DNA of 53,827 nucleotides. It comes from a virus. Under the pieces are notes generated by a model. The model was not told the origin of the DNA. It saw only the letters and a list, made by a program, of their open reading frames with translations, and ran no database searches. The position numbers and the translations under genes were made by a program. Numbering within the stretch: the stretch's first letter is position 1; the number at the start of each line of letters is the position of its first letter. Where the stretch lies: IMG/VR virus record IMGVR_UViG_3300035698_011686, positions 1 to 53,827 of that record, one strand, 5' to 3'. Below, piece by piece: positions 2,498 through 52,021 of this stretch.

Positions 2498-3082
2498 ATG
2501 GGTCATCTTGAAAACACCAAATGTTATTTAGTTGGTCCAGTCGAACACGACAAATCGTTCGGTAAAGACTGGAGAGAAGTTGCTGTAGAAGAACTAAACA
2601 ATATAAATGTCACTCCATATAACCCACTTGATAGACCAAAATGGATGAGGCATATCGAACAATTTGTCCCAATGGCTGTGTCTAGGGACGAAGTGTTAGA
2701 CGCAATTGAAGAAATAAAAGATAAAGAGCGCAGATCAAAATATATCATTGCTCAGCAGTTTATACGTCACATCTGTTTAAGATATGTCCATTCTTGTGAT
2801 TTTGTGTTGTGTTATTTACCAAATGCAAAAACATTTGGGTCAACTGAAGAACTAGTTGTAGCTCACCAAGCCCGCAAACCAATCGTCATGATTTGTCCCG
2901 ATAGAATACCATCTTTATGGGTTTATGATATAGTCAAAGACCAACCAGTGTTTGATGATTTAAAGGCGGCACTTTGTTATATTCGCCAAGTAGATAGGGG
3001 CGAAGTTCCACTTGATCCTCTTAAATGGATATTCCTAAGAGACTATGAAGATTTAAAATTGGAGAAACAATATGATTGGTAG
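2498..3082 (+). CDS. Nucleoside 2-deoxyribosyltransferase-like protein
   Basis: This 194-residue protein matches the nucleoside 2-deoxyribosyltransferase fold: N-terminal KCYLVGPVEHD (residues 8-18), a WRE helix, NPLDRP, then SCDFVLCYLP (99-108) and GSTEELVVAH (114-123). The Glu of the last motif is at the usual catalytic position. Such enzymes transfer deoxyribose between bases or hydrolyse deoxynucleoside (mono)phosphates. A strong ribosome site (AAGGAG) precedes ATG 2498, and the gene overlaps the DeoC-like gene by 11 bases. With the dCMP deaminase and PurZ-like enzyme nearby, a role in reshaping the host deoxynucleotide pool is likely. Substrate specificity cannot be read from the sequence. 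Confidence 0.75.
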   Translation: MGHLENTKCYLVGPVEHDKSFGKDWREVAVEELNNINVTPYNPLDRPKWMRHIEQFVPMAVSRDEVLDAIEEIKDKERRSKYIIAQQFIRHICLRYVHSCDFVLCYLPNAKTFGSTEELVVAHQARKPIVMICPDRIPSLWVYDIVKDQPVFDDLKAALCYIRQVDRGEVPLDPLKWIFLRDYEDLKLEKQYDW

Positions 3083-3806
3083 CTGTATTGAACTTATTGC
3101 CCCCACTGAAGAGGAGCTAAAAGCAGCAGACAAGATTGCATCTTCTATTGGTTGCAGGGTTATTTATGTAACGCCAAATCTGGTGCAGATTGCTGGTGTT
3201 GCCCGATCTCTATCGGGTGGTAAATATAGTATTTATGTCATGGTTGACTATCCAAAAGGCTCAAAATATGGTGTAGATAAATTTAAAGGAACCTCTACTG
3301 ATTTCTTTTTAGCCGATGGATATGATATAATTTTAACTCAAAATAGAAGTGTGGGTGATCTTGAGAGAGAAATAGCAAATATTTATTCATTTGTTAAGAA
3401 AATGATCAGCCCACACGTAGATGTATGTTATACGATAAACGTATCAACCAGGAATGAAGAGGAGTTAAATGCCTGCGCACTCACATTTCATCGTAATCCG
3501 CCAACCAAAATAAAAACAGAGTCATCGGCCACAGTTCAGCCAACAAAAGCCAATCTTGATGTGCATAAAAACACAATTGAGATTATGAGAAAAAGATGCA
3601 CTACCCCGATGGTTATCTCTGGAAACATTAACTACAGTATTTATAAGGAATTGAGATCTTCTTGTAAAATAGCAATATCCCCAAAACAATATGACCAAAT
3701 AAAAAAGCAAGAAGATGAAGAACTAAAAAAGAAAAAAGATGAAGAACTAAAAAATCGGGAAAATGATGAAGAAACCAAAGTAATGAAACCACCCACAGGA
3801 GAGTAA
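3072..3806 (+). CDS. DeoC-like (deoxyribose-phosphate aldolase family) protein, diverged
   Basis: The 244-residue product follows the strand order of a DeoC TIM barrel: VMVDYPKGS (57-64), ADGYDIILTQN (81-91), NVSTRNEEEL (123-132), KIKTESSAT (146-154), then MVISGNI (180-186). By pattern alignment K148 fits the Schiff-base Lys and D85 the conserved Asp, while the second Lys (KASGGI in DeoC) is replaced by Ile. The last 40 residues are a charged KKKKDEE tail. The real enzyme cleaves deoxyribose 5-phosphate; here activity is uncertain and a binding role is possible. GGAG about 8 bases before ATG 3072 supports the start, which lies inside the deoxyribosyltransferase-like gene. Confidence 0.55.
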   Translation: MIGSCIELIAPTEEELKAADKIASSIGCRVIYVTPNLVQIAGVARSLSGGKYSIYVMVDYPKGSKYGVDKFKGTSTDFFLADGYDIILTQNRSVGDLEREIANIYSFVKKMISPHVDVCYTINVSTRNEEELNACALTFHRNPPTKIKTESSATVQPTKANLDVHKNTIEIMRKRCTTPMVISGNINYSIYKELRSSCKIAISPKQYDQIKKQEDEELKKKKDEELKNRENDEETKVMKPPTGE

Positions 3807-3808
3807 TA

Positions 3809-4267
3809 ATGGAATGGGATGAATATTTTATTAATTTGGTTTACGCCGTAGCCGAAAAGAGTAAGGATCGAAGTAGCAAGGTTGGGTGTGTCATTGTGGG
3901 TCCAGATAACGAAATAAGGAGCACAGGATATAATGGCTTCCCAAGAGGAATGGATGACGAAATAGAGGATAGACATGAGAGGCCAGCAAAATATAAATGG
4001 ACCGAACACGCCGAGAGAAATGCAATATATAATGCTGCTAAAATGGGCATATCATTAAACGGTTGTAGGCTATATCAAAAGTGGTATCCGTGCTGTGACT
4101 GTGCTAGGGCTATTGTACAAGTTGGAATAAGTGAGATGATTGTAGATGATAGAGACAACAATCCCTGGAAGTCAGAAGAACACATGAAAAGATGGAAAGA
4201 CGAAATGGAAATAGCTTTGCAAATTCTTACTGAATGCGGAGTTAATATTAGGCACTGGAAATGTTAA
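3809..4267 (+). CDS. dCMP deaminase family protein
   Basis: This is a 152-residue zinc-dependent cytidine/deoxycytidylate deaminase. Zinc and catalytic residues are intact: HAERNAI (H67, E69) and PCCDCA (C95, C98). VGCVIVGPDNEI, GYNGFPRG and the length match phage and cellular dCMP deaminases, which turn dCMP into dUMP for dTMP synthesis. It begins 2 bases after the DeoC-like gene with GGAGAG upstream and overlaps the next gene by 7 bases, so it is part of one operon. RNA or tRNA deaminases share this fold, but the FPRG segment and the nucleotide-gene neighbours favour dCMP. Confidence 0.88.
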   Translation: MEWDEYFINLVYAVAEKSKDRSSKVGCVIVGPDNEIRSTGYNGFPRGMDDEIEDRHERPAKYKWTEHAERNAIYNAAKMGISLNGCRLYQKWYPCCDCARAIVQVGISEMIVDDRDNNPWKSEEHMKRWKDEMEIALQILTECGVNIRHWKC

Positions 4268-4617
4268 TAAAAACAAAATGCTCATGTGGACACGTCAATC
4301 AGTCAGAAGTGTCATTAGAATGGGTGTCATGTGGTACCGCGCCAGTAACATGTGAGGATTGTGGAGATATTTATGTCGCGAACGAGACAATTGATGAAGA
4401 AACCGTAAGTGTTGAAGATGAATATCAACACCCAACCAAGGCAGAAACAAATTTTGACATAGCAAGCAGAGTCACTATTGAGAATAAAGAATATGAATAT
4501 GATGGACAAGAAGGTATTGTAATAGATAAAGATTTTTTACACTATAGGGTCAAACTAACTAGTGGTAGGATTGTTTGGTTGCCACACCACTGGGTCATTC
4601 TAAAAAAAACGACATGA
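4261..4617 (+). CDS. Zinc-ribbon protein with C-terminal SH3-like module
   Basis: This 118-residue protein has an N-terminal CSCGHVN and a later CEDCGD, a likely zinc ribbon, followed by an acidic linker. The C-terminal domain (about 65-118) shares GIVIDKD, then Y, then VWLP with the end of the 1547-2461 protein. The start ATG 4261 overlaps the deaminase stop. It may be a small nucleic-acid- or protein-binding adaptor; no family was recognised. Confidence 0.7.
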   Translation: MLIKTKCSCGHVNQSEVSLEWVSCGTAPVTCEDCGDIYVANETIDEETVSVEDEYQHPTKAETNFDIASRVTIENKEYEYDGQEGIVIDKDFLHYRVKLTSGRIVWLPHHWVILKKTT

Positions 4618-5265: not shown

Positions 5266-6084
5266 TCAAGCGACTAATTTTTGTAATTTTTGTAATTCTT
5301 CTAGCATAATAGCAACTTTGGGGTTTAGTTTATTTGATGTTTGATCTTTTCTAATCACTGCAATTTTGTAAGCCAATTCTGCATGCTTCTTTTTTAAAAC
5401 CAAATAATCAATAAACTTAGGAACAAACCGAATAATGTCATTAGACATTAACCTGACAGTTTTTGTTGTTCTTCTATCTCCCATAACTTTGTCTTCTTTT
5501 GGTGATTTTTTGTTGAGATGTTTTGCAATATGATCAATTGTGTGATGATTGGTCATTGCTATTTTTATATATGGTTTGGGGTTGTTATTGTTGAATTTTG
5601 CTGTAGTTATTGATCCATCGCCATCTATCATGCCAGCAAACCATTTCCAATTGAATTCATGATCTGGTACTGGCTCTCCTAACCAAGCTCCCTTTCCCCT
5701 TTTATTGAGTGTGCTGAGTTTTTGACACAAGTCATTCCATTCATTAGATTCCGATTCCGTATAGGGTGTGTTATCGCCATTTTTGATCATAATGGTGTCG
5801 TAAAAAATTTTAGCCTGTTTTCTTTTGGTATGTAATAATGGAATCAAATCTGGTAATATTCTCCTACACAACCCAGCAGTGATTGTTATGTTTTTGCGAT
5901 ATCCGCTATCAGAAAAGCCCGTATTTAAAACCCCAGCAACCTCTGGTATTATTTTATCATCGGTTGTACTTATTCTTAATCTATGATTTCGTACGAGTAT
6001 TTTATGTCCTTTTCTAGTGGTTGGTCTTATTGATATTGAAAATGATCCCTCAGAATCGACAATGCCAGCTATCCAATTTAACAT
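5266..6084 (-). CDS. Free-standing LAGLIDADG homing endonuclease
   Basis: The start is chosen at 6084, where AGGAGAAAATA precedes the ATG; the longer frame to 6231 would run into the purZ-like gene. The 272-residue protein has two LAGLIDADG motifs, WIAGIVDSEG (residues 4-13) and WFAGMIDGDG (148-157). It is therefore a monomeric two-domain enzyme, with the acidic metal ligands D10/E12 and D154/D156. Such enzymes cut a specific site and copy their gene into it. It is not inside an intron or intein: both neighbours are complete, and it lies between the decayed gene and the PurZ-like gene on the opposite strand. Confidence 0.88.
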   Translation of the reverse strand: MLNWIAGIVDSEGSFSISIRPTTRKGHKILVRNHRLRISTTDDKIIPEVAGVLNTGFSDSGYRKNITITAGLCRRILPDLIPLLHTKRKQAKIFYDTIMIKNGDNTPYTESESNEWNDLCQKLSTLNKRGKGAWLGEPVPDHEFNWKWFAGMIDGDGSITTAKFNNNNPKPYIKIAMTNHHTIDHIAKHLNKKSPKEDKVMGDRRTTKTVRLMSNDIIRFVPKFIDYLVLKKKHAELAYKIAVIRKDQTSNKLNPKVAIMLEELQKLQKLVA

Positions 6085-6130: not shown

Positions 6131-7348
6131 ATGGATACTAACTTTTGCTTTGCCCCGGGAACCATAACCACCGTACTAGACGCAAGCGCTGGAAGTTCTG
6201 GCAAGGGAAAAATCGGGTCTTTTGTTACCAAACATTCAGATAGCTGGCAATTTTGTTGTAATACGTTTCAACCCCAAGCCGGACATCACGTGTATGACAA
6301 CAATCAACACTTCTTTTATCAGACACTCAATTCATGCGCATATCTTCACGATAAATATGAGAAGATGTATATTGGCCCAGGGTGTACTATTGAATTACCA
6401 GCACTCTGGTGTGAAATGGAAGAAAACAATGTGCCAGCACACAAGCTTGGTATAAGCCCGGTCGCGGCAATATTACAGGATATTGACGGAGCATTCGAGA
6501 GAGGCGAGGTCGATCTTGACGGCAAACAATTAGCTGAGTGCCACTCCGGGACCATGAAGAGCGGGAGTACTTGCCACGGTGTTGGGGCCTGCAAAGCACG
6601 AAAGATATTAAGACGACCAAATATCAAACTGGCTCGCGACATCCCAGAGCTACAAGAATTCCTTTGCGATGTTCCTGGCGAGATTATGAATAGACTCGAC
6701 AACGGGCAGGCCGGTCTTTTGGAGATCGCACAGGGATTTCAGCTTAGTTATTTGTTACCAGAGTTTTATCCATATTGTACGTCTAGAAATTGTACCATAT
6801 CTGCCGGTCTAGATGACATGATGATTCCACCACGATATGCAGGAAACATGATCTTGAACGTCAGAACATACCCAATTAGAATCAATAATAAGAAATTCAT
6901 TGCTGAAGATGGACATCACTTGGTCTGGGACGAAATTAAGAGCGGTGTCCCGCACGATGTAAAAATATATAATTCAGGCCCGGGATATGAAGACCAGGAA
7001 GAAATAAGCTGGGAAGATTTAACTAAGATAAGTGGATCTCCAGAGGCCATTATGGAGATGACTTCAGTTACTAAATTACCAAGAAGAGTGTTTACTTTTA
7101 GCCAAAAGAATTTAGAGCAAGCAATACGATATAATGACACCGGACGCGCCATCTATTTGTCTGTTAATTTTGTAAATTATGTTGATCATGCAATGACTGG
7201 CATACGTGGAGGCAATGACGGCGTTACAGACAAACTAAAAAATTGGTTGAAGGAAAATATTAAACCATGTTGCGACAGCGCTCGCACCGCCGAGTTAATG
7301 TTTTTGGGAACTGGCCCGCTAACTGATGATATGATTACTCTATGTTAG
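6131..7348 (+). CDS. purZ: Adenylosuccinate-synthetase family enzyme, PurZ-like
   Basis: This 405-residue enzyme belongs to the PurA/PurZ superfamily. The nucleotide loop reads GSSGKGK (21-27) where PurA has GDEGKGK, so the catalytic Asp (Asp13 in E. coli) is replaced by Ser, as in phage PurZ. Other family landmarks remain: QAGHH with H52, SGSTCHGVGA (144-153), QGFQLSYLLP then YPYCTSRN (201-220), KLPRRVF (315-321), LSVNFVNYVDH (343-353) and GTGPLTDDMI (393-402). PurZ condenses dGMP with Asp to give the precursor of 2-amino-dAMP, whereas PurA makes adenylosuccinate from IMP. The surrounding dCMP deaminase and deoxyribosyltransferase fit deoxynucleotide work. ATG 6131 follows GAAGGA by 8 bases. 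The PurZ assignment rests on one loop and context, and DatZ, MazZ and DpoZ partners were not seen in this window. Confidence 0.72.
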   Translation: MDTNFCFAPGTITTVLDASAGSSGKGKIGSFVTKHSDSWQFCCNTFQPQAGHHVYDNNQHFFYQTLNSCAYLHDKYEKMYIGPGCTIELPALWCEMEENNVPAHKLGISPVAAILQDIDGAFERGEVDLDGKQLAECHSGTMKSGSTCHGVGACKARKILRRPNIKLARDIPELQEFLCDVPGEIMNRLDNGQAGLLEIAQGFQLSYLLPEFYPYCTSRNCTISAGLDDMMIPPRYAGNMILNVRTYPIRINNKKFIAEDGHHLVWDEIKSGVPHDVKIYNSGPGYEDQEEISWEDLTKISGSPEAIMEMTSVTKLPRRVFTFSQKNLEQAIRYNDTGRAIYLSVNFVNYVDHAMTGIRGGNDGVTDKLKNWLKENIKPCCDSARTAELMFLGTGPLTDDMITLC

Positions 7349-7357
7349 GAGATAAAA

Positions 7358-8173
7358 ATGAAGCTTCATTTTCTTGGAACTGGCGGCGGTTTGTGCTCGC
7401 CGAAGGATAATTACCACAGCAACATGATATTTATTGTTGATGGTGGTGCTGGTTCCGAGAAATATTTAGGCTTCGATTGTGGTGTTCATTGGCAACAATC
7501 TAGCGAAGAAGCAGGTTATAAGATAAAAGACATAGAGGGCTTTTTTATCTCTCATCTCCATGACGACCATGTTGGTTGTCTCGGGATAGTTGGTTTTAGT
7601 AGATTCTTTGGAACATTTCCATTTGGTCAAGATCGTCCCAAATTGTTTGCTAATATAGAAGTTACTGATGAATTATGGAGTAAATATTTATCAGCAGCAA
7701 TGGAGAGTGTTCAAGATAGGCGAAATTCTCTTGATCAATATTTTGATGTGGAGAGAATCAAACCCAATGGATCATTTACTTGGCGCAATACGACTTTCGA
7801 TCTTATACAAACTGTTCACGTTATTGATGATCGAAGGATGAAGCCGTCATATGGAATGATTTTCAAAACTGATGGTAAGACTGTATTTATTACTGGTGAC
7901 ACACAATTTGCACCAAATCAGTTGCTGACTTTTTACCAGAGATCAGATATCATATTTCAAGACTGCGAGTTAGCTGAATATTCAAATAGCGTTCATTCTC
8001 AATATCATGAATTGCTGGGATTACCAGATGATATTAGAAGCAAAATGAGATTATATCATAATGACGGGGAAAGACCAGACGCAATTGCAGATGGTTTTGC
8101 TGGTTTCATAAATAAAGGCGACATTTTTGATTTTTCTATGGATATGATTTTAATACCACGTGCGGAGAAATGA
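7358..8173 (+). CDS. Metallo-beta-lactamase-fold hydrolase (tRNase Z-like)
   Basis: This 271-residue MBL-fold protein opens with MKLHFLGTGGG and has the complete metal-site set: HLHDDH (66-71), H154, GD at 180-181 and H234 in LYHND, plus a VHSQYHE segment (212-218). The architecture is that of the tRNase Z/phosphodiesterase branch. Possible substrates are RNA ends, cyclic nucleotides (the phage Apyc1 anti-Pycsar enzymes have this fold) or nucleotide derivatives. It starts 9 bases after the PurZ-like gene with AGGAGA upstream, so it is expressed with it. Which substrate it uses cannot be told from the sequence. Confidence 0.8.
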   Translation: MKLHFLGTGGGLCSPKDNYHSNMIFIVDGGAGSEKYLGFDCGVHWQQSSEEAGYKIKDIEGFFISHLHDDHVGCLGIVGFSRFFGTFPFGQDRPKLFANIEVTDELWSKYLSAAMESVQDRRNSLDQYFDVERIKPNGSFTWRNTTFDLIQTVHVIDDRRMKPSYGMIFKTDGKTVFITGDTQFAPNQLLTFYQRSDIIFQDCELAEYSNSVHSQYHELLGLPDDIRSKMRLYHNDGERPDAIADGFAGFINKGDIFDFSMDMILIPRAEK

Positions 8174-30367: not shown

Positions 30368-33268
30368 ATGGCAGTATATTTGTCGCCTGGGGTTTACGTT
30401 AACGAAATAGATGTAAGCTACCTGGTAACTGGATTTGGAGCTCTGCGCCCAGCTATCATTGGTACGGCCCAAAAGGGACCCCTGAACCAACCGACATTCA
30501 TCACCAATGCACAACAATTTATCGATACATTCGGTGAGCCGTTCGCTGAGAGTTATCTCGGCTATGCTGTTTTAGCATATTTAGAAGAAGGCAACCAGTG
30601 TTATATTGAGAGAGTTGGCGTGGCTTGGGAAGAAGGAATGCCGGAAGATCTTGACAACATAGCAATTGATATTTCTGGAGCCAAACGTTATGGTTGGGGA
30701 AGAATCCCGCTATTCTCGGGCATTGATCATGGCCGAATTGCGCTTAGGATTCCAACTGAAGAGAACCCAATTGAATTTCACAATGATGCCATAACCAGTA
30801 TCGATTATAACGACATCGATGCGACTTCTCCTACCAATGCCACTCTAGATTTCACTGGCGCAGGGCTCAGTGATGCCTACATTGGCGTGATTGATGATAC
30901 ATTTGTAGTTTTAATCACCGATGATCCAATTGCAACTGGCGGTTCATCGATGGATGGTGCCTCCTATGAGATAACAAGAAATAGTGATGGAGAAGTTGTA
31001 GCAGAGGGCGTCATTGTTGAGAGTGTTACTCCAGGTGAATCTGAACCAGTTGTGGTTGGTACAGGCGATGACGCTTCTGGTTTGATCTTTAAGTTTGTTG
31101 TAACATCTGGAATTCTTTCTCAGAATGATAGCTTTACCTTCTCAGTTCAACCAGACAACAGAACTTTTGCTTTCTGGGTCGATAGAGAAGAAGACACAAA
31201 TGGTCCTGTTATTAATGATTATCAAATGACAGCCAATGCTTGGTACGATGGCGTTACTACTGGCCATACAATTGATGACTTTGTTACAGATTTTAATGCA
31301 ATTGATATGGGTTCTGGCGCTTTGAGCTTGATTGAAGAGTACAAGCTAGCTAATATTGATGGTGTTCCAACTGTTGTTACAGATGATCGCGGACAAACCC
31401 TGCAGATTATGCCCGATCCAGTTAGTGGTCTTGGCGAAGCTTGGTCTTTGGAAGTTGGTAAGAGCTTGTATTCTTGGGATGTTCCGAGAGCCAAACTTCT
31501 TGGCACAGATGTTGGTCCGTTTAACATCAATTCTACAAATAACAGAGTCAATATCAATGCTATAGCCAGCGAAGAGACAACTGAAGTTGAATTTTCGATT
31601 AGCACCGGAAGTAGTTTACCAGTTAGCACGGTAGCACTGCAGTGCCACGCTGGTGGTGTTCAAGCTGGTGTTAGATATTGGAGATCATACGCTCTTCAGA
31701 TTACAGACGATAATTACGTCTTGGTGATCGAGGCCGATCCAACCAATCAGCTTCTTACGCTCGAAATGCTTGCTAACTGGTCCAACATCAAGACACTGAG
31801 ATTCGCTGAGGAAGTTGAGATTGTATATCCATACAAGGATTCTTATGATGGATTCTTTGATCCAAGAACAAATCTCCCAGAACAGGGGGTGTTAGATCCA
31901 TCAACACCATTGAGTTGTGAAGATAGCCCACTTAGCGTCCAGTGTTCAGTTGATTCCGATTATTACGAGCACATTGTTGGTTATTTTGTGGCGCCATCTT
32001 CTGGAACTTGGGTTGACAATCTATCTGTTACTCTTGAGGTGTTTACACAGGGCGTCGGAGACAGTGCTGGTAGATATACCATCATAGTCCAGGACAGCTC
32101 TGGTTTGACTGTTGATCAGACTCAGGATGTTTCATTTGACAGCACTGAAGATAGATATATTGGCAACATATTGAATCCAGGAAGCACTCTTGGTGGCATA
32201 AATGGCAACGCCTTTGTCAACTGGGAAGATCGCCCAGCGGCCTTGGGTGAGGATGTTAGACTCCCATCCACTTTCGGTGGAAAAGAATTTGACGGCCAGG
32301 CCAACGGTATTCCGGACGATCCGATCTATAGCACTGAGCTTGATAGGGTTGTTATTGGCAATCCGGCTCTTGCGACCGGTATTTTCGCCTTTGAGAATCC
32401 TGAGACTTATGACATCAACCTCATTGCAACTCCTGGATTTTCTTCTGGCGCAGTTATTGGCCAAGCAATTCAGATGTGCATGTCAAGAGGTGATGTTCTT
32501 TATATCGTTGACCCTCCTTACGGATTGCGTCCGCAGCAGGTTGTTGATTGGCACAACGGCATGCTCTTGTCTGATCTCAGACAGGCAATTAATAGTTCTT
32601 ATGCAGCTCTTTACTGGTCCTGGTTACAGATCTTTGATCAGTTTAGTGGCGAGAACATCTGGATTCCACCAAGTGGACACGCTCTGGCCGTATTTGCCAG
32701 AACATCCAGAGTTGCAGAGCAATGGTTTGCTCCAGCCGGTCTGCGTAGAGGTCGCTTGATCACTCCGATCGATGTTGAATACAGCCCGACATTACCAGAA
32801 CGCGACCTATTATATGGTTCTGGCAATGCCGTGAACCCGATTGTGAATTTCCCGCAAGATGGTATCACAATTTGGGGCCAGAGAACTTTACAGCGCATGG
32901 CTTCTGCTCTTGATAGAGTAAATGTCAGAATGCTTCTGTCCTACATCAAGAAGAATCTGACCAGAGCTTTGAGACCGTTCGTTTTTGAGCAGAATGACTC
33001 AATTACCTGGGAACAGGCTAAGTCCATTTCGGAATCCTTCTTGGCTGACATTAAGGCCAGAAGGGGTCTTGAGGATTTCCGCGTGGTTTGTGATGAGACA
33101 ACAAACACGCCGGAAAGAAGAGATCGAAATGAGATGTGGATTTCGATCTTCATCAAGCCGACGAAGGTCATCGAGTTTATTATACTTAATATCGTGGTAA
33201 TGAGAAGTACCCAGAGCTTTGCTGCCGAGGAAGTCCTCTCAGCTGGCGGTGTGGTACAAGGCAACTAA
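30368..33268 (+). CDS. Tail sheath protein, gp18-like, enlarged
   Basis: 966 residues, with ATAGGAGACAGTC before the ATG. The N-terminus has the sheath hallmark YLSPGVYVNEID, GALRPAIIGTAQKGP and a linker arm. The C-terminal 150 residues (GLRRGRLITPIDVEYSPTLPERDLLYGSGNAVNPIV, GITIWGQRTLQR, NVRMLLSYIKKNLTRALRPFVFE, NEMWISIFIKPTKVIEFIILNIVVMRS) form the conserved core that contracts. Compared with T4 gp18 (659 residues), the middle is expanded by large beta-rich surface insertions at about residues 130-560. It is flanked by a candidate promoter and a terminator, fitting an abundant product. Confidence 0.95.
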   Translation: MAVYLSPGVYVNEIDVSYLVTGFGALRPAIIGTAQKGPLNQPTFITNAQQFIDTFGEPFAESYLGYAVLAYLEEGNQCYIERVGVAWEEGMPEDLDNIAIDISGAKRYGWGRIPLFSGIDHGRIALRIPTEENPIEFHNDAITSIDYNDIDATSPTNATLDFTGAGLSDAYIGVIDDTFVVLITDDPIATGGSSMDGASYEITRNSDGEVVAEGVIVESVTPGESEPVVVGTGDDASGLIFKFVVTSGILSQNDSFTFSVQPDNRTFAFWVDREEDTNGPVINDYQMTANAWYDGVTTGHTIDDFVTDFNAIDMGSGALSLIEEYKLANIDGVPTVVTDDRGQTLQIMPDPVSGLGEAWSLEVGKSLYSWDVPRAKLLGTDVGPFNINSTNNRVNINAIASEETTEVEFSISTGSSLPVSTVALQCHAGGVQAGVRYWRSYALQITDDNYVLVIEADPTNQLLTLEMLANWSNIKTLRFAEEVEIVYPYKDSYDGFFDPRTNLPEQGVLDPSTPLSCEDSPLSVQCSVDSDYYEHIVGYFVAPSSGTWVDNLSVTLEVFTQGVGDSAGRYTIIVQDSSGLTVDQTQDVSFDSTEDRYIGNILNPGSTLGGINGNAFVNWEDRPAALGEDVRLPSTFGGKEFDGQANGIPDDPIYSTELDRVVIGNPALATGIFAFENPETYDINLIATPGFSSGAVIGQAIQMCMSRGDVLYIVDPPYGLRPQQVVDWHNGMLLSDLRQAINSSYAALYWSWLQIFDQFSGENIWIPPSGHALAVFARTSRVAEQWFAPAGLRRGRLITPIDVEYSPTLPERDLLYGSGNAVNPIVNFPQDGITIWGQRTLQRMASALDRVNVRMLLSYIKKNLTRALRPFVFEQNDSITWEQAKSISESFLADIKARRGLEDFRVVCDETTNTPERRDRNEMWISIFIKPTKVIEFIILNIVVMRSTQSFAAEEVLSAGGVVQGN

Positions 33269-45599: not shown

Positions 45600-47150
45600 A
45601 TGAAGTATCTTGGTAAAGCAGAAGAAGCCATTACTGAGTCTAAGGGTGAAGTTAAGAACGAAATGCTTCTCCTTGAGGCTAAAAAGAATGAGACAGTGAA
45701 GCGTTGGGCACCGGTTATTGGTAAAATGACCGAGGTTTCATCCAATAAGTATAGCCTAATGGCTGCACTTCTTGAGAACCAGCACAAGGCTATGGAAGGC
45801 AAGGGCTCGTCCCTTCTTTTCGAGGACGCATTCCAGACAGGCAACATTGCTGACTTCACTCGTTTTGCTCTTCCATTGATCCGCAAGGCTTATCCGAAAC
45901 TTATTTCGGACAACCTCATTGGTGTTCAGCCCATGAGTCAGCCAGCCAGTCTGATTTTCTACATCAGATATCGTTATGGCATCAGCAAGGGCCAAACGGT
46001 TGCTGGAACGCAGATCATGCGTCAAAACACATCGGCACAGTTCGCCCGTCAAAACGGTTGGGCTCTTGACCCTTATTATAGCAGCCAGACTGTTGGCGGC
46101 CAGGGTTGGGACGGTGAAGACCTCACCAATACCGGCGGCACCGTAACTGGCGTTCTTGTTCATAAGCCAGTTCTTGCTGGTACAGTTATTGTCAACCTTT
46201 ATACAGCAGACGCCGTTGGCGACAACTGTGAAGGCAATCCAGAAGCCGAGATTCAGGTTTCTTTCGATGCATCCGGTGATGTTGAATTGGCTGCAGTTAA
46301 GAACCCGACCACTTACGCGGTCGACGTTAATAACTCCAGTTTTGACCATAGCACTGGTACTGTTCTTGTCACCTTTAGTACTGGTGACGTTTCCGCTCTC
46401 GTTGCTCGTGCCTCTTATGAGTACGATCTCGAGAACAACCCATTCCAGCCAGAAGTTACGATGAGCATTGACAGTGACTCCATGAGTGCACTGACTCGTA
46501 AGCTCAAGACTTCTTGGTCCCTGGAAGCCGCTCAGGATCTCAAGTCGGTTCATAATATCGACGCCGAGGCAACCCTGACCGATCTCATGGCTGATGAGAT
46601 GGTTGCTGAGATTGATCGTGAAATCATCAACGATCTACTTATTGCGGCAGCAATTCGCGCAACTCACAACTTTGCAACAGCAGCCGGCGCATCGGTGAAC
46701 TTTACCGACCGCAACATTGCTCTGCTCTATAAGACCATTGAAGTTGCCAATATCATCCACAGAACGACCCTGCGTGGCCCAGCCAACTGGCTCGTAACAA
46801 GTGCTGATATCGCTTCGAAGTATGAGCAGCTCAATGACTTCCGTGGTTCTGACGCTCTCGCCGAAGACGGAATTGACATTGGTATCACCAATGCCGGTAC
46901 CATCCAGTCGAAGCTGAAGCTCTACAAAGATCCGCTCTTCCCGAACTGTAAGGTGCTTATGGGTTATAAGGGTGGAAATGTTATGGATACCGGTTACGTT
47001 TACGGTCCTTATATTCCACTTCTGAGCACCCCAACAGTGATGGATCCGAACTCATTTACTCCTAATAAGGGTATTATGACGAGATACGGTAAGAAATTGG
47101 TCGAGGATGGTGGCCTTTATTATGGTACGATCACGGTCACAAATCTGTAA
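45600..47150 (+). CDS. Major capsid protein, gp23-like
   Basis: 516 residues with ATAGGAGAAATTCAA upstream. HK97/T4-type capsid features: N-terminal removable segment (about 1-75), ADFTRFALPLIRKAYPKLISDNLIGVQPMSQPASLIFYIRYRYG (85-128), a long insertion with Gly/Thr strands, LETSWSLEA-like SWSLEAAQDLKSVH (306-319), MADEMVAEIDREIINDLL, and a C-terminal YGPYIPLL, MTRYGKKLVEDGGLYYG. The protease probably cuts near SLLFE/DAFQ or LLLE/AKKN, both (L)xE sites. Codons are more GC-rich at third positions, as in a highly expressed gene. A terminator follows. Confidence 0.95.
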   Translation: MKYLGKAEEAITESKGEVKNEMLLLEAKKNETVKRWAPVIGKMTEVSSNKYSLMAALLENQHKAMEGKGSSLLFEDAFQTGNIADFTRFALPLIRKAYPKLISDNLIGVQPMSQPASLIFYIRYRYGISKGQTVAGTQIMRQNTSAQFARQNGWALDPYYSSQTVGGQGWDGEDLTNTGGTVTGVLVHKPVLAGTVIVNLYTADAVGDNCEGNPEAEIQVSFDASGDVELAAVKNPTTYAVDVNNSSFDHSTGTVLVTFSTGDVSALVARASYEYDLENNPFQPEVTMSIDSDSMSALTRKLKTSWSLEAAQDLKSVHNIDAEATLTDLMADEMVAEIDREIINDLLIAAAIRATHNFATAAGASVNFTDRNIALLYKTIEVANIIHRTTLRGPANWLVTSADIASKYEQLNDFRGSDALAEDGIDIGITNAGTIQSKLKLYKDPLFPNCKVLMGYKGGNVMDTGYVYGPYIPLLSTPTVMDPNSFTPNKGIMTRYGKKLVEDGGLYYGTITVTNL

Positions 47151-47231: not shown

Positions 47232-47453
47232 ATACCATTTGGTATGTTTTATTTTCTCATAATACCATTCACTCAAAGATACCATATGGTATCTTTTTCC
47301 CATAGATATAACATGCATACCTCGAGTCAAACATAAAACAGAAGATAACACATTTATGGAAGGAAAGATACCATATGGTAAACGTATATCTTTTATCGCT
47401 AGTATATTTAAATTTATATTGATGATATTTATTAAAGAGAAGATACCAAATGG
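47232..47453 (+). promoter_or_regulatory. Array of operator-like palindromes before the endonuclease-methyltransferase gene
   Basis: The 313-base gap 47151-47463 holds the capsid terminator and five related sites: ATACCATTTGGTAT (47232), ATACCATT half-site (47262), GATACCATATGGTATC (47278-47293, part of a perfect 22-base palindrome 47275-47296), GATACCATATGGTA (47367-47380) and GATACCAAATGG (47442-47453). The last touches the ribosome site GGAGG (47452-47456). No long coding frame is convincing here. Confidence 0.8.
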
Positions 47454-47463
47454 AGGATTTGAG

Positions 47464-49224
47464 ATGGGTAAGCTTATCGATTCACAAATTAAAATTTTGA
47501 TAGAAGAATATGGGACAGGTTCAGACAAAACAATGAATTATTTTGCCAAGAAATTTGGGGTGCATAGCGATACCATCAAAAGAGCATTGATTAGTAATAA
47601 CGTCGAAATAATATCCACCCAACAATTAATGTCTAAATATTATTCAAAGTGTGGGAATCATAATTATTTTGGAAAAATAGATACTGAACATAAAGCCTAC
47701 TGGATAGGTTTTCTGGCTGCAGATGGCCACCTTGTTGGCAGTGATAAAAATAAAATATGTAGAGTGCAATTTTCATTGGTGAAAAGTGATAGTGATATGG
47801 TAGAAGCACTGGCTGCCGACCTAGGGATAGATTCTATCAAACATGAAACCAGGGAAAGAAGAGGCAAGAAATATTATAGTGCTATTTTGTCATTTAATTC
47901 TAAACAGATGTGCTCACATCTAATTGGTCATGGTTTACTTGATTGGAAAAAGTCGGGTAGTCAAAATCTAATAAATTCAATACCACCGGAGTTATATTCA
48001 CACTTTGTGCGGGGAATTTTCGATGGTGATGGGTCAATTCAAGTTAAACAACGCAAGGATAGACCCTCAAAAAGTTATTATATCAGAATAGCTGATCATT
48101 TTCATGACACATTGGCTGCCATAGAAGACATATTGGTCGGTGTTGGTTGCAACAAAAATGGAGTTAAGAAATCATCAACCGATGACAGCCATTATATAAG
48201 ATGGGGAGGAACCCAGCAAGTAAAAAAGATAGCAGAGTGGATGTATAAAGATGCAACTATTTTTATGAAGAGAAAAAAAGTATTATTTCCCGGACATGTC
48301 AATATTCAATGTGGTGGAGTTAATAATGAGAGTAAATATAATTATTCGAATTGGAAAGTGACATTTGATTCTGCCGAAGAATGTTTCGAGTGGCTGATTG
48401 AATATGGATTTCATCAGCCAAAATATAATATTTCAACTGAAGATATCAAATTTGATATGGATGATAAATTAAATGCCAACATCCGCAATGTCAAGGTATT
48501 GGATATAATCAAAAATTTTTCTCCGCATTATTGGCAATCGACCCACAAAAACTATAATTCCATATCTGATGCTTGGGAGAAAGGCAATCAGTCAATTTTA
48601 AGGATGGCAATCGAGAGAATATGGGACAAGAAAATTGTCAATATTTATTCTTTGTTACAATCAATTACAAGGCATTTCAAGGATTTTACTATTGTATCGG
48701 TTTTTAAGCCCTGGGTTGCTCGATATGTTTATGAAAAATTATTGCCAAATGGCGGAACCGTGGTTGATCCTTGTATGGGATGGGGCGGTAGGCTAATTGG
48801 TTGCATCGGTTTGGACATAAATTATATTGGGTATGATTTAAATCAGAATGCAGTACGATCACACAACAATCTCCTGGCGTTTCTTGGGAGCAAAATCAAA
48901 TCAGCCAAGTTTGAGAAAGCAGATAGTTCAAAAATTGATTTTCCCAGCGCAGATTTATTATTTACTTCTCCGCCATATGATGATACTGAGAGATATTATG
49001 GTATTGATTCGGCCAAGACCATCACTAAACTAATATATGAGAATATATTTTCTAAGTTTGTTGGTATTATTGCTTTAAATGTGCCACTAAGACATGCTGG
49101 AGAATGCACCGAAATAGCAAACGCAAATGGGTGGGCTGTGTCTGATGAATATCAAATGAAAACTTCGTCTTTTATGGGTAGAGAAAAAACACATGAACCC
49201 ATTATTGTTTATGGAAAGAGATAA
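47464..49224 (+). CDS. LAGLIDADG homing endonuclease fused to a DNA methyltransferase
   Basis: 586 residues from ATG 47464 (GGAGG 7 bases upstream); the longer frame from 47356 lacks a site and runs through the palindromes. Residues 21-45 look like a helix-turn-helix (DKTMNYFAKKFGVHSDTIKRAL). Two LAGLIDADG motifs lie at 80-89 (WIGFLAADGH) and 182-191 (VRGIFDGDGS). Residues about 400-586 form a methyltransferase: VVDPCMGWGGRL (433-444) as the AdoMet site and LLFTSPPYDD (498-507) as the catalytic motif IV, typical of N4-cytosine or N6-adenine enzymes. Both activities in one chain are unusual; it could cut unmodified DNA and protect its own copy. No intein splice residues were found. Confidence 0.82.
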   Translation: MGKLIDSQIKILIEEYGTGSDKTMNYFAKKFGVHSDTIKRALISNNVEIISTQQLMSKYYSKCGNHNYFGKIDTEHKAYWIGFLAADGHLVGSDKNKICRVQFSLVKSDSDMVEALAADLGIDSIKHETRERRGKKYYSAILSFNSKQMCSHLIGHGLLDWKKSGSQNLINSIPPELYSHFVRGIFDGDGSIQVKQRKDRPSKSYYIRIADHFHDTLAAIEDILVGVGCNKNGVKKSSTDDSHYIRWGGTQQVKKIAEWMYKDATIFMKRKKVLFPGHVNIQCGGVNNESKYNYSNWKVTFDSAEECFEWLIEYGFHQPKYNISTEDIKFDMDDKLNANIRNVKVLDIIKNFSPHYWQSTHKNYNSISDAWEKGNQSILRMAIERIWDKKIVNIYSLLQSITRHFKDFTIVSVFKPWVARYVYEKLLPNGGTVVDPCMGWGGRLIGCIGLDINYIGYDLNQNAVRSHNNLLAFLGSKIKSAKFEKADSSKIDFPSADLLFTSPPYDDTERYYGIDSAKTITKLIYENIFSKFVGIIALNVPLRHAGECTEIANANGWAVSDEYQMKTSSFMGREKTHEPIIVYGKR

Positions 49225-51407: not shown

Positions 51408-51587
51408 ATGGATATTTCGGAAGAAGCCAAGGCATTTGAAGAGAAACACGGATCTGAAGAGTTTGGGAAGGTTGTCATGTCCAATCTTAATAGGTTGCTG
51501 GTTCAGAAAGGCATATTAACAGAAGATGAGTTGAAGGTGGGCTTGGTTGAAACAATGCGTTGGTTTGAAGAGGGAGGGGTTGCATGA
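51408..51587 (+). CDS. Small acidic helical protein
   Basis: 59 residues, starting one base after the previous stop, with CCAGGAGAATAGA upstream. MDISEEAKAFEEKHGSEEFG, then NRLLVQKGILTEDELKVGLVETMRWFEE. The stop overlaps the NADAR start as ATGA, so the two are translated together. Confidence 0.65.
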   Translation: MDISEEAKAFEEKHGSEEFGKVVMSNLNRLLVQKGILTEDELKVGLVETMRWFEEGGVA

Positions 51588-52021
51588 ATTTAGACGAAAT
51601 ATCTTCATTCGATGGGGAGCATGAATTCCTGAGTAACTTCTATCTATCTAATGTAGATCTTGATGGAGTGACTTATCCAACAGTGGAGCATGCCTTTCAA
51701 GCAGCCAAGACCGCCAAGCCAGAAGAACGATCAGCGATTTTGGCAGCACCAACTCCATGGAAATCCAAAAGGTTGGGAAGAAAGGCTACTCTGAGGCCAG
51801 ATTGGGAATCTGTAAAGATAGGAATTATGACGGATTTGGTGGCGCAGAAATTTCGAGATCCGAAGTTGGCTGAATTACTTAGGGCGACCAAAAATGTAAA
51901 ATTGATTGAAGGTAATAATTGGGGAGACACATTTTGGGGTGTCTCTAGAGATGTTGGACAGAATCACCTTGGACAAATATTGATGAAGGTAAGATCTGAA
52001 TTAGACGATAGCCAGGGATAA
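51584..52021 (+). CDS. NADAR-family (YbiA-like) protein
   Basis: 145 residues, the family's normal length. Landmarks: HEFLSNFY (13-20), VTYPTVEHAFQAAK (29-42), APTPWKSKRLGR (55-66), NNWGDTFWGV (111-120) and NHLGQILMKVR (127-137). NADAR proteins process N-glycosidic bonds of ADP-ribose-related and riboflavin-pathway molecules; some remove ADP-ribose from DNA guanine and act as antitoxins to DarT-type toxins. In a phage this could neutralise an ADP-ribosylating defence. Coupled to the small acidic gene before it. Confidence 0.88.
   Translation: MNLDEISSFDGEHEFLSNFYLSNVDLDGVTYPTVEHAFQAAKTAKPEERSAILAAPTPWKSKRLGRKATLRPDWESVKIGIMTDLVAQKFRDPKLAELLRATKNVKLIEGNNWGDTFWGVSRDVGQNHLGQILMKVRSELDDSQG

Follow-up and report, generated by a model that had tools for sequence, protein, structure and literature searches.

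2-Aminoadenine (Z) DNA has been described so far from siphoviruses and podoviruses (PMC8342488, PMC8599892), and all published phages that carry both purZ and datZ are of one or other of these morphologies (PMC8342488, PMC8599892). Many PurZ0 genes are accompanied by an NDT-family protein, DmtZ, which turns dAMP into adenine (PMC12884076). Most described Z-DNA phages have genomes of about 40–50 kb. We found no paper that ties 2-aminoadenine to jumbo phages of the kind considered here, in a search that left the subscription literature mostly uncovered.

The viral DNA analysed here (IMG/VR record IMGVR_UViG_3300035698_011686, 53,827 nucleotides, referred to as the window) carries a gene that falls beside these systems:

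6131–7348, + strand: PurZ-clade 2-aminoadenylosuccinate synthetase (predicted reaction dGMP + Asp + ATP -> dSMP; assigned from Pfam, PDB, tree and residues)

The open reading frame encodes 405 amino acids and runs from ATG to stop without interruption. Judged from its sequence, the product is a PurA-superfamily protein: Pfam Adenylsucc_synt matches it at 3.9e-17, and the top PDB matches are to phiVC8 PurZ (6e-23). Translation and comparison with E. coli PurA confirmed the initial annotation in that GSSGKGK (residues 21–27, window 6191–6211) stands in place of GDEGKGK. The Asp-to-Ser exchange lies at residue 22 (codon 6194–6196), and the adjacent Glu is likewise Ser. GSSGKG is present in 13/13 members of the window's PurZ branch, and comparison with the nearest relative shows strong purifying selection on the gene (pS 0.82, pN 0.21). 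The Pfam and PDB matches, this conservation and this selection together argue that GSSGKGK is not a chance feature. Relatives within the branch share 35–69% identity with the window protein, which carries insertions around residues 123–143 and 253–281.

Serine at the catalytic position had been taken as a known mark of PurZ, which proved insufficient on its own. A scan of cellular genomes (loci L141–L211) identified a short (~340 aa) adenylosuccinate-synthetase paralogue with GSEGKGK that is widespread in bacteria and archaea. GSEGKG was present in 27 of the 32 cellular loci examined, using a search pattern that favoured it, and 9/10 genomes examined encoded a full-length Asp-type PurA alongside the short paralogue. 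Ser alone is thus ruled out as proof of PurZ identity, and further evidence is required.

Maximum-likelihood trees were built twice with IQ-TREE, first from 64 and then from 67 proteins. The window protein formed a branch with those of G001, G003, G004, G005 (first run only), G007–G012 and Flavobacterium phage MaF61, supported at 100/100 in the first run and 100/99 in the second. This branch is nested in the PurZ superclade (100/98 and 98/98, respectively). The window protein lies outside PurZ0, which is monophyletic (100/100), and outside the PurA clade (100/100, second run); the cellular paralogues are likewise separate from its branch in both trees. Clustering with ordinary PurA, the outcome named at the outset as refuting the proposal, was therefore not obtained. 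No member of the branch was found in a search of cellular genomes.

Ligand residues were taken from the S-2L PurZ structure (PMC8342488) and mapped onto the alignment. Nearly all dGMP- and ATP-binding residues are retained in the window protein (S22, A50, H52, S146, T147, R161, Q201, T217, R250, T311, T314, R318, N346, F347, N349, G395 and P396), the exceptions being N49Q, T53H and V241I (I251 in the window). Its N346-F347-x-N349 motif (NFVN) matches the pocket in which phiVC8 PurZ takes up the ATP adenine; at this position the residues are Thr...Asp in both PurZ0 and E. coli PurA. Tree and pocket (NFVN, no TxxD) rule out assignment to PurZ0, an option that the initial annotation had kept open, and PurA membership is ruled out by Ser22 and by a PurA clade that forms at 100/100 without the window protein.

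Profile–profile comparison of the branch with nine canonical PurZ proteins gave a probability of 100% (E 2e-60). The best NCBIfam model was PurZ NF038379, which the window protein matched at 140.4 bits against a cut-off of 300; other branch members scored 131–145 bits and E. coli PurA 127. As the cut-off was missed, we file the protein as a new PurZ-clade lineage outside NF038379 as now drawn. The proposal of a PurZ-type enzyme is upheld by its position in the PurZ superclade (98/98) and by the retained ligand residues and ATP-type pocket, and the alignment and trees support a previously unsampled, putative PurZ branch distinct from PurZ0, PurA and the cellular paralogues.

The neighbourhood of the gene comprises:

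2498–3082, + strand: NDT superfamily protein, candidate dAMP hydrolase/transferase (Pfam, alignment, AlphaFold)
3072–3806, + strand: DERA-fold TIM-barrel protein, partner of the NDT gene (AlphaFold pLDDT 86.9, PDB matches)
3809–4267, + strand: dCMP deaminase, pyrimidine supply (Pfam PF00383, 3.9e-24)
4261–4617, + strand: small conserved protein, also encoded close to the pair or to PurZ in G003, L217 and L222; G009 has it at another location
5266–6084, − strand: LAGLIDADG homing endonuclease gene (Pfam PF00961, 3e-7)
7358–8173, + strand: metallo-beta-lactamase (MBL)-fold protein, anti-Pycsar Apyc1 family (Pfam PF23023, 70.9 bits, cut-off 50)

A deoxyribosyltransferase-like neighbour had been noted and is found in the NDT gene, but the DERA-fold gene that follows and overlaps it had been missed. 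Pfam PF15891 matches the NDT product at 2.3e-5, under its cut-off. An alignment of eight homologues places the triad at Tyr10, Asp101 and Glu118, all invariant, and Glu16 sits at the position of DmtZ Asp12. Confidence in the AlphaFold model is moderate (pLDDT 76), and the best PDB matches of this model are NDTs, DNPH1 and MilB (best E 7e-5). As far as the model and alignment go, the gene meets the criteria of an NDT fold and a Tyr/Asp/Glu triad. Identification as DmtZ itself finds no support in sequence, with no phmmer match at 1e-3 and an hhalign probability of 12% against a single Glenn sequence.

For the partner, the 31 best structural matches of the AlphaFold model are all DERA-type aldolases, with deoxyribose-5-phosphate aldolases on top in the PDB (E 1.6e-9, TM 0.62–0.77). 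Neither Pfam nor a PDB profile search gave sequence-level evidence of DERA, and hhalign with E. coli DeoC reached 1%, such that the DERA identity is visible in the predicted fold only. The search alignment was narrowed because the initial set was too diverse for searching. Motif alignment places the Schiff-base lysine at Lys148 and Val180 at the second lysine position. The Schiff-base Lys is likewise kept and the second lost in G003 and L217; the reverse holds in most other members, which have Arg and Lys at the two positions. The window protein does not meet the test of both active-site lysines and, with one of the two missing from each protein, aldolase activity is doubtful.

The NDT and DERA-fold genes were observed overlapping or adjoining in 12 phages, all of which encode PurZ (12/12). 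Seven phages carry a related NDT without the DERA-fold gene, and none has PurZ (0/7; one is a 5-kb fragment). The association gives a Fisher p of 2e-5, or 0.008 for records not found through PurZ, a small set, with relatedness uncorrected. PurZ was itself the route to nine of the 12 phages with the pair (the window is one of them, as G000), so the co-occurrence is partly by design. The pair lies ~26 kb from purZ in G009 and ~170 kb in G033, and adjacency alone is thus no explanation. It also accompanies other PurZ lineages, in L217 (GSSGKGS) and in L222 and G033 (GSSAKG, GSCGKG). The NDT and DERA-fold genes of L217 are close to those of the window, yet its PurZ scores only 118 bits against the window protein; in L217, purZ lies in one operon with the genes for the dCMP deaminase, the small protein and the MBL protein.

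Pfam confirmed the dCMP deaminase that the initial annotation had placed among the neighbours, and deaminase or dCTP-deaminase-fold genes lie near the pair in L217, G009, G004 and G033. The LAGLIDADG gene is directly upstream of purZ and divergent from it, in a frame open to 6231 with a likely start Met at 6084. The MBL hydrolase named among the neighbours does have that fold, but reads as an Apyc1 counter-defence gene and not as a pathway enzyme: its Apyc1 score makes a role in the Z pathway unlikely, as does its restriction, among the records searched, to the window and L217, where the gene order is the same. Farther along the window, a 622-aa open reading frame (47356–49224, + strand) has a LAGLIDADG domain amid a weak DNA-methylase (N6/N4) match, and a NADAR-domain protein (51584–52021, + strand; PF08719, 4.2e-26) belongs to a family tied to ADP-ribosylation and defence.

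Structural genes place the carrier among tailed phages:

30368–33268, + strand: tail sheath protein (PHROG 23, 3.3e-86; homologues in G004, G009 and G010)
45600–47150, + strand: major head protein, common to 320- and 341-kb PurZ phages (PHROG 138, 8.9e-80)

Genes for a tail tube and for baseplate wedge proteins of the T4 type are also present in the window, and by its predicted gene content the phage is contractile-tailed. G010 (341 kb) and G009 (320 kb), both found through PurZ, have sheath, tube, capsid and baseplate in common with it; on the strength of these shared structural genes, the window is probably part of the genome of a jumbo contractile-tailed phage.

The sole cultured relative found is MaF61 (168 kb, complete), a myovirus by electron microscopy whose describing paper is silent on 2-aminoadenine (PMC13269007). 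MaF61 and G011 lack the pair and encode an HD_3 hydrolase, an adenylosuccinate lyase, a guanylate kinase and a family-B DNA polymerase, of which the lyase and kinase are the next two pathway steps after PurZ. A MazG-like protein is also present in MaF61. HD_3 was found only in MaF61 and G011 and MazG only in G010 and MaF61; neither was seen in the fragmentary window. Adenylosuccinate lyases occur in G007 and G010 too; single-protein patterns found no relatives of the MaF61 lyase. G007 encodes a 997-aa family-A polymerase (L079:12734–15724, − strand) one gene upstream of purZ, and G001, G005, G006, G009 and G010 have only a short family-A polymerase-like open reading frame (~375–415 aa). By eye, the long N-terminal part of the G007 polymerase has a uracil-DNA-glycosylase-type look, with no Pfam match. 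Immediately upstream of purZ in G012, a single frame (L094:4045–5250, − strand) joins HTH, LAGLIDADG and dCMP deaminase domains, which might represent an intein or a homing endonuclease fusion. In G003, the closest relative, a protein with an orotate phosphoribosyltransferase-like phosphoribosyltransferase domain is encoded near the purZ operon (L086:13294–14034, − strand).

Neither DatZ nor the DUF550/DUF5664 proteins known from Z phages had a homologue in the records searched, which are mostly fragments, and no standard DpoZ was found, the window being itself a fragment. Since IMG/VR contigs are mostly fragmentary, such absences are weak except in the complete MaF61. The suggestion of a pathway variant with neighbours other than DatZ/MazZ fits the data.

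Sequence, clade position, ligand residues, the pairing of the two genes and the contractile-tailed carriers are observed. The locus most likely serves 2-aminoadenine DNA synthesis aided by a new set of accessory genes, Z in DNA being inferred. We regard it as probable that this is a deeply divergent true PurZ, that dZTP is used in place of dATP, and that the dATP pool is lowered by the NDT and not by DatZ. PurZ would convert dGMP and aspartate, with ATP or dATP, to N6-succino-2-amino-dAMP (dSMP), an activity on dGMP and ATP inferred here. Adenylosuccinate lyase, host-made in most and phage-made in some relatives, would act next, followed by guanylate-type kinases to give dZTP, which the phage polymerase would insert instead of dATP; Z in virion DNA is likewise an inference. 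In the window subgroup the most likely role of the NDT would be to split dAMP into adenine and deoxyribose 5-phosphate, by analogy with DmtZ in PurZ0 phages, and the DERA-fold partner may bind, sense or remove the deoxyribose 5-phosphate. Both roles are inferred from family and pairing, and only the PurZ step has homology strong enough for prediction. Counting against this explanation are an NF038379 score (140 bits) near that of E. coli PurA (127), the differing Q49 and H53, the failure to find DatZ, DUF550 or a standard DpoZ (in a window that is only a fragment), the missing DERA lysine, the moderate confidence of the NDT model, the MaF61-type PurZ phages without the NDT pair, and the lack of any enzyme or DNA measurement for any member.

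Alternative explanations must be set against this. The 2-amino product might serve merely to skew nucleotide pools or to place a little Z in DNA, the genome remaining mainly adenine. We consider this unlikely without dismissing it: the NDT/DERA pair or HD hydrolase and the extra lyase and kinase genes point to a dedicated pathway, and adenine replacement is complete in S-2L, whose polymerase nonetheless accepts A as well as Z (PMC8065100). Nonetheless, DatZ is not recognised in the window subgroup, nor a Z-specific DpoZ in most members; the family-B polymerase of MaF61 and G011 is of a type undescribed from Z phages in the literature found; and the S-2L Z-cluster expressed in E. coli gave partial replacement (PMC8342488). 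That the enzyme is PurA-like, with dIMP or IMP as substrate for supplying dAMP/AMP or some other N6-succinyl purine, and bears Ser for some other reason, seems improbable. Ser is common at the same place in the short cellular paralogue, whose role is unknown, and Q49 and H53 are unlike canonical PurZ, but the protein groups neither with cellular paralogues nor with PurA and has the PurZ-type NFxN pocket.

We give very little credence to a pathway that ends in another purine, such as a further modified or N6-substituted 2-aminoadenine derived from the PurZ product. The partners are unlike those of known Z phages and a DNA-methylase-like reading frame with a homing-endonuclease domain lies at 47356–49224, whereas no obvious base-modifying enzyme adjoins purZ in the relatives inspected and the adenylosuccinate lyase in four relatives would strip the succinyl group. 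Finally, a real PurZ could have the pair as a chance neighbour serving general deoxynucleotide salvage or thymidylate supply, which is compatible with the best PurZ explanation and which we consider less likely than not, though a real possibility. Genes for dCMP deaminase, dCTP-deaminase-fold protein and thymidylate kinase do adjoin the pair; set against them is its occurrence with PurZ in 12/12 phages, remote from purZ in two, with ascertainment bias for nine.

Returning to the preferred explanation of Z-DNA synthesis by a divergent PurZ, a broader form of it can be offered only tentatively: a separate 2-aminoadenine lineage in contractile-tailed and jumbo phages, in which dATP is cleared via dAMP by the NDT and DERA-fold proteins and not by DatZ, and some members encode the entire dGMP-to-dZDP route (PurZ, lyase, kinase) and copy Z by a family-B polymerase. 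A PurZ branch in contractile-tailed phages of up to 340 kb would carry adenine replacement into large, self-reliant phages and, if true, would add a third route for clearing dATP. MaF61 raises the question of a family-B polymerase copying a Z genome and, as it is already cultured on Flavobacterium, makes the Z-DNA idea directly testable there.

Compared with canonical PurZ (phiVC8, S-2L, Acinetobacter phages), the window branch shares Ser for Asp, a common clade (98/98), the T-[TS]-V-T-K-x-x-RR loop (window TSVTKLPRRVFTFS, S-2L PurZ TTVTKLPRRIFTFS) and the adenine pocket NFx[NQ]. Identity between the two is ~28–31%; the window branch has GSSGKGK and 405–450 aa with clade-specific insertions, whereas canonical PurZ has GSTGKGL and ~340–390 aa. 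Unlike the canonical carriers, those of the window branch are contractile-tailed, partly jumbo, and have no DatZ-MazZ adjoining purZ. PurZ0 (Arthrobacter, Gordonia and Microbacterium phages) also has Ser for Asp, but with a TxxD nucleotide pocket and a clade of its own (100/100). MaF61 ORF141, annotated ‘putative adenosuccinate synthetase’ (PQ858689), belongs to the same branch as the window protein, with GSSGKGK and 35% identity, in a phage that, unlike the window, has no NDT/DERA pair. The DERA-fold protein is alike to DERA/DeoC in predicted fold, its sequence match to E. coli DeoC not being significant. The DmtZ–DutZ system parallels the window pair in the NDT fold, the Tyr/Asp(Asn)/Glu triad, an acidic residue at the place of DmtZ Asp12 and, in some relatives, dUTPase or dCTP-deaminase-fold genes nearby; it differs in that the Glenn DmtZ domain has no detectable match at 1e-3 and the window partner is DERA-fold. 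The variety of partner sets among these phages recalls the functional convergence reported between PurZ and PurZ0 phages (PMC12884076).
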